A DNA stretch of 64,000 nucleotides from Desulfarculus sp. (lineage in GTDB: Bacteria > Desulfobacterota > Desulfarculia > Desulfarculales > Desulfarculaceae): the NCBI GenBank assembly GCA_003605055.1, contig QZKP01000020.1:62001-126000 (forward strand), read 5' to 3'. The notes under the pieces were generated by a model. That model was not told where the DNA came from. It saw only the letters and a program-made list of their open reading frames with translations, and did not search any database. Made by a program: the position numbers and the translations under genes. Below are positions 37,058 to 53,574 of this stretch, in pieces (positions within the stretch are counted from its first letter, which is position 1; the number at the start of each line of letters is the position of its first letter).

Positions 37058-37879
37058 ATGGGCATACTCGGCGAGTCTCTGGAGATCCTGCGCGGCCGCC
37101 TGGGGGCGGACTACGCCGGGCTGCGCGTGCAGCGGCTGGTGGCCGGGCTGTTCTTCACCGGCGTGAAGCTCAGCTCCGGCGCGGCCGGGGTCTGCTTCAC
37201 GCCGGTCAAGGACATACCCCAGGCGGTCTGCTGCCCCTCCTCGGCCGGCCGCATCTTCAACCCGGCCTCGCTGGCGGGCCTGCCGGCCGGCGAGCTGCTG
37301 GCCGGCCTGGACTCGCCCGAGCCCCTGAAGCGGGCCGCGGCCATCGCCGGGCTCAATGCTCTGCATGCCATGTGCCTGGAGCGAGGCCTGACCGGCGCCT
37401 GGAGCCTGCGCCTGGACCTGGACGCCCAGGACGCGGTGGAGATGGGCCCTCAGGCCAAGGTGGCGGTGGTGGGGGCCCTGGTGCCCACCCTGCGGGCCCT
37501 CAAGGCCCGCGGCGGCCCCTGGTGGGTGGTGGAGCAGGACCCGCGCACCCTCAAGGGCCAGGAGCTGGAGCGCTACGTGCCGGCCGCGGACATGGCCTCG
37601 GCCGTGGGCCAGGCGGACCTGGTGTTCATCACCGGCACCACCCTGGTCACGCAGACCCTGGAGCCCATCCTGGCCGCGGCCCGGCCCCAGGCCAAGGTGG
37701 TGGTGCTGGGCCCCACTTCCTCAATGAGCCCCGAGCCCCTGTTCGCCCGCGGAGCGGACGTGGTGGGCGGGGTGTGGGTGCGCCGGCCGGACGAGCTGCT
37801 GGAGGTGCTGGCGGCCGGCGGCTCGGGCTACCACTTCTTCGACAGCCTGGCCCAGCGCATCGTGATGACCCCGGCCTAG
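37058..37879 (+). CDS. DUF364/DUF4213-type Rossmann-like protein
   Basis: The 273-residue protein has an N-terminal enolase-like part (residues 1-100, with FTGVKLSSGAAGVCFTPVKD) and a C-terminal Rossmann-like DUF364 domain (VEMGPQAKVAVVGALVPTLRALKARG, LVFITGTTLVTQTLEPIL, VVVLGPTSSMSPEPLFARGADVVGG). Members are thought to bind metals or metal chelates, and the biochemical role is not established. Its TAG stop overlaps the stop of the convergent QmoB-like gene as a shared CTAG, so no terminator separates the two units. Confidence 0.82.
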   Translation: MGILGESLEILRGRLGADYAGLRVQRLVAGLFFTGVKLSSGAAGVCFTPVKDIPQAVCCPSSAGRIFNPASLAGLPAGELLAGLDSPEPLKRAAAIAGLNALHAMCLERGLTGAWSLRLDLDAQDAVEMGPQAKVAVVGALVPTLRALKARGGPWWVVEQDPRTLKGQELERYVPAADMASAVGQADLVFITGTTLVTQTLEPILAAARPQAKVVVLGPTSSMSPEPLFARGADVVGGVWVRRPDELLEVLAAGGSGYHFFDSLAQRIVMTPA

Positions 37880-51280: not shown

Positions 51281-53574
51281 GACGCCTCCTCCTGGCTGGC
51301 CGGGAAGCTCAGGCGGAAGCTGGTGCCCTCCCCCGGCTTGCTCTGCACCTCGATGGAGCCGCCGAAGTCGCGCACGATGCCGTAGGAGATGGACAGCCCC
51401 AGGCCGGTGCCCTTGCCCACCTCCTTGGTGGTGAAGAAGGGCTCGAAGATGCGGTCCAGGTCCGCGGCCGGTATGCCGCAGCCGTTGTCGCTGACCGTGA
51501 CCACCACCTGCCCGTTGTGCGCGGCGCTGGTCACCCGGATCAGCCCCTCGGCGGCCGCGCCCCCCTCCTGTCCTTCCTCGATGGCGTCGCGGGCGTTCAT
51601 CACCAGGTTGATGAACACCTGCTCCAGGCGGTTCAGCTCGCCCCGCACCGGCGGCAGGTCCGGGGCCAGCTCGGTCTGCACCTGTATGTTGTGCACGGCC
51701 AGCTGCTGGCCCAGGAGGGCGAAGACCCCGTTGATGGCGTCGTTGATGGAGACGTTCTCGGCGGCCACCTCGTGCTTGCGGCCGAACTCCCGCAGGTGGG
51801 AGATGATGCGCCGGGCCCGCTCCACCTGGCCGGCCAACTCGGCGGCCACCTCGCGCAGGATGGCGGCCTCGGGCAGGACGCCGCCGTTCACCGCCTTGCG
51901 CAAATAGTCGCTGCCGGTGGCGATGACGCTCAGGGGCTGGTTGAGCTCGTGGGCCACGCCGGCGCTCATCTCGCCCAGGGTGGCCATCTTGGCCGCCTGG
52001 ATGAGCTGCTGCTCGGTCTGCATGCGCTGGGTGATGTCGTTGGTGGTGGCGATCACCGCCTTGCGCCCCAGGTGCTCGCCGTAGGAGGCCCGCAGATTGG
52101 CGAAGTAGATCGCCCCGTCCCGGCGCACCTGGCGCACGCTGGGCAGGAAGGCCTCCTGGCCGTCTAGGAAGGAGCGCACCCGCCCCCGGTCGCCGGGGTG
52201 GGTCAGATCCAAGAAGGAACGGCCGATGAGGGCGCCGGACTCGTACTGGTACTCGCTGGCCGCCCGGTCGTTGGCGTCCAGTATCTCCAGGGTGTCCGCG
52301 TCGAAGACGAAGATGGGGTTGGGGTCGTTGTTGAAAAACAGGCGGTACTTTTCCTCGGAGCGCTTGAGCTCCTCCTCCAGGCGGCGGATGTCGCTGATGT
52401 CGGTGGCCATCTCCATCACCGCGATGATGTCGCCCTGCTTGTTGGTGATGGGGGTGGTCAGGTTCAGGAAATATATGGGCTTGCCGTCGGCGCCCACCAC
52501 CATCTCCTCGGCGCTGTGCATGCGGCCGTCCCGGAAGGACTTGTCCACCGCGCAGTGGGGGCACTTGGTGGTGCGTCCCTTGTAGGCCACGTAGCAGTGG
52601 CGGCCGATGGAGTAGCCGAAGTCCCGCTCGAACATCTTGTTGTGGGCCACCAGCTTGAAGTCCGCGTCCTGCACCGAGATGTAGCAGGGCACCTCCTCGA
52701 ACAGGCGCTGGTACTGGCGGCGGCTCTGCTCCAGGTCATCGGTTTTGTCCTTGATGCCCCGGCGCATCAGGTCAAAGGACTGGGCCAAGGAGCCCAACTC
52801 GTCGTTGTTGCGGGCCACGATGGGATGCTGGTAGTCGCCCTGGGTGATCTGGCGGGTGGCGCTGAGCAGTGAATTCAGGGGGCGGTTGACCAGGTAGAAG
52901 GTAAACAGAGCCACCACCATGCAGATGGCCACGAAGCCGGCCGCCGCATAGATGAGCACCTGGCGGGTGCTCTGGGCCAGCTCCTGGTCCACCGCGTCCA
53001 GGGACAGGGCCACGTCCAGCACCCCCAGCACGGTCTGCTCGGGCGGGTGGACGTGGCAGGGGTCGGAGTAGCAGACCTTCTCGGTGTAGATGGGGTTGAT
53101 CACCCCCAGCACCCGGTGGCGCGCCCCGCCCTCGCTGCTGCTGAAGATGCGGCTGCGCTGGGTGAGGGGCAGGCGCTCCAGGGGCCGGTCCTTGAAGTGG
53201 CAGGCGTAGCAGGCCTCGCTCTCCATGTCCACCAGACGGCCGATCTCCTCGGCCCGGCTGCTGAACATGATGCGCCCCTTCTTGTTGAGCACCCGGATGG
53301 CCTGCACGCCGCTTTGCCGGCCGATGGCCTCGATGATGTGGTGCACGCTCTCGCGCTGGTCCTTGAGCATGCCGTAGCGGGTGGCCCGCTTCACCGTGTC
53401 CGAAAACCAAGTGCTGGTCTGCAGCATCTTCTCGATGGAGCGCCGCTCCTGGTTGTGGATGCCGAAGTAGGCCGCCACGCCGGTGAGCACGATCAGGCAG
53501 ACCCCCACCCCGGCAGTGAGCTTGAAGGACAAGCGCTGGGTGAGTTTCTGGCCTTTGGACTTGGCTGGGTTCAT
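51277..53574 (-). CDS. Sensor histidine kinase with periplasmic heme-type Cys-His motifs and PAS domains
   Basis: The 765-residue kinase has a membrane helix at 20-36, a periplasmic domain to about 205 and a second helix at 206-228. HAMP, two PAS domains (first near 275, with [14 protein letters not shown]; second near 400), HisKA with [10 protein letters not shown] and an ATPase domain ([23 protein letters not shown]) follow. The periplasmic part has CYACH at 122-126, a canonical CxxCH c-heme site, and CYSDPCH at 168-174, a CX4CH variant. It probably senses a redox state or small gas outside the membrane. It is the first gene of the Hdr operon, placed after a -24/-12 promoter. Confidence 0.92.

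Follow-up and report, generated by a model that had tools for sequence, protein, structure and literature searches.

A minus-strand unit of hdr, metVF and qmo-like genes in Desulfarculus sp. and the altered MetF that it encodes

What does a MetVF pair do when it stands in the gene order of an Hdr-type methylene-tetrahydrofolate (methylene-THF) reductase, with signalling genes ahead of it, a Qmo-like pair behind it and a MetF that is altered on its folate side? This question is raised by twelve minus-strand genes (37876-53574) in a 64,000-nucleotide stretch of Desulfarculus sp. (contig QZKP01000020.1, positions 62,001 to 126,000; hereafter the window), which belongs to contig 1 of a 3.6-Mb genome of 78 contigs that is 93.9% complete (G000). 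By the tests made here, the unit is a variant of the Hdr-type MetVF complex that lies outside the methylene-THF reductases. With slightly less than even confidence, we favour the reading that it encodes a bifurcating complex of the cytoplasm, linked to NAD(P)H, in which the MetVF part has turned into an electron relay and is not a methylene-THF reductase. Gene identities were taken from Pfam and NCBIfam profiles, and Shine-Dalgarno matches served to refine the start codons. The hdr, met and qmo-like genes, in the order of transcription, are as follows (aa, amino acids).

48537-49157, minus strand: hdrC, 206 aa (Fer4_8/17; TIGR03290 at 3.8e-11, under its cut-off)
47629-48540, minus strand: hdrB, 303 aa, with two CCG motifs (Pfam CCG over two stretches; motif scan)
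43199-47632, minus strand: hdrA, a 1477-aa fusion with a GltD/NAD(P)H module (profiles and alignment to 5odc_A)
42711-43172, minus strand: mvhD, 153 aa (Pfam FlpD, 3.1e-41)
42037-42714, minus strand: metV, 225 aa (Pfam PF12225, 1.3e-33)
41271-42044, minus strand: metF, 257 aa, without the beta7-alpha7 block (PF02219 match over profile positions 1-179 of 287 only)
40011-41246, minus strand: QmoA-like HdrA-type flavoprotein, 411 aa (aligns with HdrA chains 8rvv_A and 5odc_A; tree)
37876-40014, minus strand: QmoB-like protein, 712 aa (FlpD at 562-683, Fer4, HdrA-like match)

MetF, MetV and the Hdr-MvhD core

All 13 orthologues are without the folate-site block beta7-alpha7, which reads PLKSxGMAxYM...VP in canonical MetF; the wider MetF set compared excludes the duplicates L005 and L028 as well as L115, whose MetF is partial. 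The pterin-binding Gln (the equivalent of Gln183, in the motif TQ) is missing in 9 of the 13 and kept in 4; in the window its place is taken by K. These positions were counted from the profile match, in which residues 155-292 of Escherichia coli methylene-THF reductase match positions 162-301 of the canonical-MetF profile, so that Gln183 is the Q of TQ and Phe223 falls inside the missing block. In the E. coli enzyme, Gln183Ala and Phe223Ala raise the Km for methylene-THF about 260-fold and about 186-fold, respectively (PMC11094777). The equivalents of the catalytic Glu28 and Asp120 are kept in all 13 orthologues, and a fold model contains the complete barrel of methylene-THF reductases (predicted local distance difference test, 95.2; predicted template modelling score, 0.92).

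Within the genus, the ratio of non-synonymous to synonymous change (dN/dS) of metF is the highest of the twelve genes, 0.59 compared to 0.33 for metV and 0.19 for mvhD; all ratios given here are probably inflated, in that the NG86 dS is likely to be underestimated in this GC-rich genome, and they are meant to be compared within genome pairs. Between G000 and G007, the operon MetF is 60% identical with a dN/dS of 0.56 (0.43 for codons 56-137, 0.84 for codon 181 onward), whereas the canonical MetF is 91% identical with a dN/dS of 0.17 (0.19 in its C-terminal part). Across 13 sequences of each kind, the pairwise identity of residues 101-137 was 78% for the operon MetF and 67% for the canonical one, and that of residues 181-257 was 39% and 68%, respectively. 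The segment on the flavin adenine dinucleotide (FAD) side is thus conserved and has a low dN/dS compared to the folate-side segment, suggesting that the FAD side is held while the folate side drifts.

The frame of metF is open in 13 of 13 genomes, and its 8-bp overlap with metV is kept in 7 of 7 loci. The 13 cysteines of the iron-sulfur and zinc sites of MetV are kept in all 54 aligned MetV. All 12 window-type MetV have a further cysteine, Cys66 (gene 42037-42714), which is absent from each of the 42 other rows. A phmmer search of MetV and MetF against the PDB gave no match for either. A canonical MetF is encoded on contig 3 of this genome, together with HdrA, MvhD and MetV. Another divergent MetF of 289 aa (L004; contig 21 of G000, 29724-30575), in which SGD reads EGE and QTQ reads VTP, is encoded upstream of a second long hdrA that has mvhD-metV-metF with it. 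The first-pass annotation of this DNA had recognised in the core the gene order of acetogen methylene-THF reductase complexes; with a MetF site that is altered on its folate side, the identity as a methylene-THF reductase is not transferable.

The composition of the core is another matter. All six genes of the hdrCBA-mvhD-metVF core stand in one unit, with the same content as the MetFV-HdrABC-MvhD complex of Moorella thermoacetica and the HdrCBA-MvhD-MetVF set of Sporomusa ovata, for which pull-down interactions have been reported (PMC9430772). HdrA consists of a TrxR-like domain split by the GltD/NAD(P)H module, an HdrA N-terminal domain, a second TrxR-like domain and a ferredoxin domain. Four colinear pieces of it (24-161, 634-851, 925-1103 and 1346-1471) align with methanogen HdrA (5odc_A), and the GltD/NfnB-like module occupies residues 165-569. 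E697 and K750 align with the bifurcation pair E356 and K409 of 5odc_A. The long HdrA of M. thermoacetica (162.8 kDa) has the same architecture with a GltD insert, and its E696 and K750 in the first TrxR-like domain are one of two bifurcation pairs (PMC9430772). However, in the second TrxR-like domain the K of the pair is present in M. thermoacetica (PMC9430772) and absent here, where the K position is A and the E position is S with an E one residue on, as judged, weakly, from a single automatic alignment. At the same pair, QmoA keeps the E and has R for K, and QmoB has neither. The unit also differs from that of Moorella in that its MetF is without the beta7-alpha7 block and the pterin Gln, and in that a QmoAB-like pair and signalling genes are added. 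The HdrA of S. ovata, in contrast, is without the GltD insert, and the membrane partner of the S. ovata complex has not been identified (PMC9430772).

Conservation of the unit and its spread in the phylum

In a sample of 21 Desulfarculales genomes, twelve stretches were mapped with the window proteins as sole queries. Window-type MetV (73-83% identity) is intact in 12 genomes, this one included, and is split over two frames in G003; the string of genes is present in 13 genomes and was seen whole in 7, again with this one included. The order from the sigma-54 activator gene upstream of the first kinase to qmoB is syntenic in L036, L038, L039, L040, L041 and L046, with the qmoB of L041 interrupted by a contig end. 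The shorter string hdrA(part)-mvhD-metV-metF-qmoA-qmoB is found in L037, L042-L045 and L047; the first five end inside hdrA at a contig end, and L047, in which metV and qmoA are both broken into two frames, ends where the fetched stretch ends. Since the order is whole in 7 Desulfarculales genomes and partial in 6 more, the twelve genes form a real unit.

The gene and domain calls bear out the twelve genes of the first-pass annotation, all on the minus strand between 37876 and 53574, and its spacing of at most 61 bases is exact (range -8 to +61). From the first kinase onward the gaps are -4, 61, 18, 16, -4, -4, 26, -4, -8, 24 and -4; neighbours therefore either overlap by 4 or 8 bp or lie 16-61 bp apart. 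A single transcription unit, as proposed there, is likely. The short altered metF, the 1477-aa hdrA fusion, the upstream activator gene and a promoter-like site had not been described in that annotation.

The named relatives that carry the string are metagenome-assembled genomes under the labels Desulfarculaceae, Desulfarculus sp. or Deltaproteobacteria. G004, a genome of the same genus that is 98% complete in one contig, has neither a MetV nor a QmoB of the window type, which argues that the absence of the string is real in places. In G020, from another family, window-type qmoA and qmoB stand at a contig start, and qmoB has one in-frame TAG.

In a sample of 395 genomes of the phylum, the window MetV has matches in 93 (E <= 1e-65) and the window QmoA in 70 (E <= 1e-70). 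The 35 QmoA-sized frames (33 genomes) were picked by hand, G325 (a 506-aa frame with a stop) being dropped, and were set against 35 MetV rows chosen to cover all their contigs; L114 and L187, which are one genome with identical MetV, were counted once. On this basis, at most 5 kb separates metV and qmoA in 26 of the 395 genomes, corresponding to 26 of the 35 frames, so the Qmo-like pair does travel with metV in related genomes, and the first-pass annotation withstands the co-occurrence check that it had set for itself. Among these 26, G086 has a different gene order and G324 is without metF. Outside the family, hdrC-hdrB-hdrA-mvhD-metV-metF-qmoA-qmoB is complete in L178, L179, L180, L182, L188, L101 and L102, and is cut or different in L099, L100, L177, L181, L184, L185 and L190. 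A third arrangement, in the f38 and f64 strings (L183, L186 and L187; genomes G400, G055 and G344), consists of metV, a canonical metF, qmoA, qmoB and an hdrC-like gene, with no hdrABC.

The MetF Gln is lost in all 8 of the f9 and G098 loci, and also in L101, L102 and L184, where the catalytic Glu is lost too; the f12 strings (L099, L100 and L190) keep QTQ and have no KSxGM. In the MetV tree, the window type is one clade (100/100), and a branch with 100/99 support separates every qmo-linked row from the Wood-Ljungdahl-type MetV of the order. It seems that the loss of the folate site happened more than once.

No report of a metVF-qmoAB link was found among the papers listed from PubMed Central, where most subscription papers fall outside coverage; passages of PMC10553843 and PMC2702500, two of several papers that name both qmoAB and metF, describe no such link. 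In L101 (oriented 15273-16568), L102 (15065-16345) and L114 (11722-13041), qmoB is followed by an HdrD-like frame whose single in-frame TGA stands each time in the context E*GH and probably encodes selenocysteine.

The MetVF part and the Qmo-like pair in the function of the unit

We infer complex formation, the loss of folate activity and the following electron route. The unit would be a sigma-54-controlled operon with a redox-sensing relay of its own at the head, and its HdrCBA, MvhD, MetV, MetF and QmoA- and QmoB-like proteins would make up one mainly cytoplasmic complex for flavin-based electron bifurcation (or confurcation). NAD(P)H would meet the GltD-like module of HdrA, and the first HdrA flavin (at E697/K750) would split the electron pair. 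One branch could then reach the two CCG centres in HdrB by way of HdrC, while MvhD and the QmoA/B-like proteins may offer additional flavin and Fe-S exits, and MetV would exchange electrons with the FAD of MetF. MetVF would thus pass electrons on, as a relay or flavin switch, and would have given up the methylene-THF reductase step of the Wood-Ljungdahl pathway, a task that the canonical MetVF encoded on contig 3 can serve. The relay role is favoured over methylene-THF activity or a new substrate on account of the kept FAD side and the altered folate side of MetF.

Several points weigh against this relay. The main one against a pure relay is that Glu and Asp are kept in all 13 orthologues; together with the Gln kept in 4 of the 13, this means that some one-carbon (C1) or pterin chemistry may remain. 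Furthermore, the E. coli Gln183Glu variant retains kcat (PMC11094777), so altered binding need not abolish turnover. A mean dN/dS below 1 and a complete barrel modelled with confidence would fit a working enzyme equally, and the inflation of the ratios bears on the apparent drift. Finally, since the f12 strings keep QTQ, the loss of Gln is not general among hdr-qmo strings.

A rival explanation is that the unit still encodes a methylene-THF reductase or a methyl-THF oxidase, that is, a Moorella-type complex with a trimmed MetF and the QmoAB-like pair as an extra electron partner. Its core composition equals that of Moorella and Sporomusa, the site Glu and Asp and the MetV cysteines are intact, and the f38 and f64 strings place a fully canonical MetF beside QmoAB-like genes, which makes a folate-linked Qmo-type complex plausible there. 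However, in the unit's own MetF the folate-side block is gone throughout, the Gln is gone in most sequences and the C-terminus is relaxed; the Glu itself is lost in L101, L102 and L184; and the same genome has canonical MetVF copies. We therefore consider this explanation unlikely, although it deserves serious weight.

It is decidedly improbable that MetF was re-specialised to another small substrate, such as another C1 carrier or an adduct of the disulfide/thiol kind, whose reduction or oxidation the bifurcating complex would drive. The catalytic Glu and Asp that stay while the contacts on the pterin/p-aminobenzoate side change would suit such a switch, as would the complete barrel of the model and the strongly conserved FAD segment. 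Nevertheless, the C-terminal part of MetF is near neutral (dN/dS 0.84), and no conserved enzyme of another pathway was seen with the string, in a mapping that used the query proteins only and could miss others.

The Qmo-like pair was expected in the first-pass annotation to link the complex to a quinone or to a carrier of the adenosine 5'-phosphosulfate (APS) reductase type. We give very little credence to the unit being an APS-reductase-linked or menaquinone-linked module. The pair does have the two-gene architecture of QmoA and QmoB, with HdrA-like and MvhD-like domains, and QmoAB with soluble HdrBC in place of QmoC is known (PMC13416013, PMC3569383), as in the Gram-positive sulfate reducers, where it stands beside APS reductase. 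In the family itself, qmoA and qmoB lie downstream of aprA with hdrC and hdrB following in L203, L204 and L206, three loci that share QmoA, QmoB, HdrCB and the lack of QmoC with the present unit; L205 has only a distant hdrC-like match. However, the four apr-linked QmoA (L203-L206) form a clade of their own (100/100, branch of 1.8 changes per column) that stands apart, under a midpoint root, from all 28 metV-linked QmoA, which are not one clade in that four rows without a metV link fall among them. The window QmoA is about 30% identical to the apr-linked ones, and here the pair is joined to MetVF with no aprBA. No aprA match over the cut-off was obtained in this genome, while 15 of the 21 genomes of the order have one. 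It is likewise missing in 5 of the 13 string-bearing genomes, this one included, three of which (G000, G008 and G013) are more than 90% complete and have dsrA nonetheless. The APS-reductase link is thus contradicted by the QmoA tree and the aprA result, and for a direct quinone link the gene is wanting: the unit has no QmoC or other multi-pass membrane subunit, its transmembrane-like stretches being two in the kinase, with QmoA and MetF having one hydrophobic stretch each. A pair on contig 22 of the same genome (L105) was considered as the canonical Qmo and rejected, with no aprA beside it; its qmoA-qmoB-hdrC-hdrB adjoin GcvH-like and GlcD-like frames, as judged from their first residues. A locus-tag search for the Desulfovibrio vulgaris tmc operon gave nothing.

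That metF is simply decaying in an operon that works without it would suit its top-ranking dN/dS (0.59) and L176, but this is scarcely credible with the frame open in all 13 genomes, the FAD segment conserved and the overlap with metV kept in all 7 loci. L176 (G324) has metV directly followed by qmoA-qmoB-hdrC-hdrB, with no metF in the 18 kb fetched.

On the wider scale, we propose, tentatively and at rather short of an even chance, a new HdrABC-MvhD-MetVF-QmoAB class across Desulfobacterota, in which MetVF was recruited from folate chemistry and lost its substrate site in several lineages. Under this proposal, the sister strings with canonical MetF (L183, L186 and L187) would present a QmoAB-HdrC/D type module as the electron partner of a true methylene-THF reductase, and would thereby supply a candidate for the missing partner of Hdr-type methylene-THF reductases. 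As for the membrane partner in S. ovata, the second acceptor of the Moorella complex is given as unknown (PMC9430772), and the conserved QmoAB-like companion is a testable partner for electron exit from Hdr-type MetVF complexes. If MetF indeed no longer handles folate, the annotation of metVF-hdr genes as a Wood-Ljungdahl methylene-THF reductase would be wrong for part of Desulfobacterota; any reconstruction of acetate oxidation or CO2 fixation that rests on it would then need correction.

Promoter, activator and signalling genes

The following features stand at and ahead of the head of the unit.

53819-55153, minus strand: sigma-54 activator with PAS, AAA+ and Fis HTH domains (Pfam Sigma54_activat 4.2e-67, HTH_8, PAS)
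53697-53815, minus strand: palindromic GTTGC-N-GCAAC sites (53815-53799, 53792-53776 and 53714-53697), possible activator sites
53609-53624, minus strand: sigma-54 (-24/-12) promoter-like site, TTGGCAC-N6-TGC, at the same place in 7 of 7 loci
51277-53574, minus strand: membrane sensor histidine kinase, 765 aa (CxxCH, Cx4CHxH, PAS domain with CPxC)
50120-51280, minus strand: receiver-histidine kinase, 386 aa (Pfam Response_reg, HATPase_c)
49585-50058, minus strand: universal stress protein, 157 aa (Pfam Usp, 6.8e-28)
49174-49566, minus strand: stand-alone receiver, 130 aa (Pfam Response_reg, 8.7e-20)

The promoter-like site (here 53624-53609) occurs once per locus in the gap that separates the activator gene from the first kinase. 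In the window, 1 such motif was found against 0.30 expected, with at least one match in 29 of 100 shuffles; another promoter-like match, its spacer 5 bases long, is at 6242-6228, and sigma-70-like matches also occur in the activator-kinase gap. In 6 of 7 loci, a perfect GTTGC-N8-GCAAC palindrome starts 89-90 bp ahead of where the promoter-like site starts, and the 3 palindromes with at most one mismatch in the window are, against 2.6 expected, within chance by count. Since neither motif goes beyond chance in the window alone, the case for both rests on their conserved place. The activator gene lies upstream of the kinase at the same place in six other loci, and its product is probably the regulator of the unit, as judged from gene position and domains.

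The C-x8-C-x3-C motif in the activator's PAS domain, as well as the CxxCH, Cx4CHxH and CPxC motifs of the first kinase, is kept in 7 of 7 loci; these motifs may mark a haem or metal/redox sensor. Signalling genes heading such an operon had been called unusual. They are not unique, in that the hmc genes of Desulfococcus multivorans adjoin histidine kinases, response regulators and a universal stress protein, resembling those of D. vulgaris (PMC5109826); there they are neighbours of a redox operon, whereas here they sit within one unit with the hdr-met-qmo genes.

Between 36900 and 55800, 13 terminator-like sites were seen against 6.4 expected; the 3 on the minus strand (40005-39992, 52929-52913 and 53426-53412) all lie within a gene. 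The DUF364 gene convergent with qmoB (37058-37879, plus strand) was used as a query and, since none of the mapped loci has a match, was excluded from the unit. At the far end of the window, a further HdrA/QmoB-like frame (62329-64000, plus strand), 26% identical to the window QmoB, lies downstream of a NuoF-like gene (59769-61670) and runs beyond the window end.

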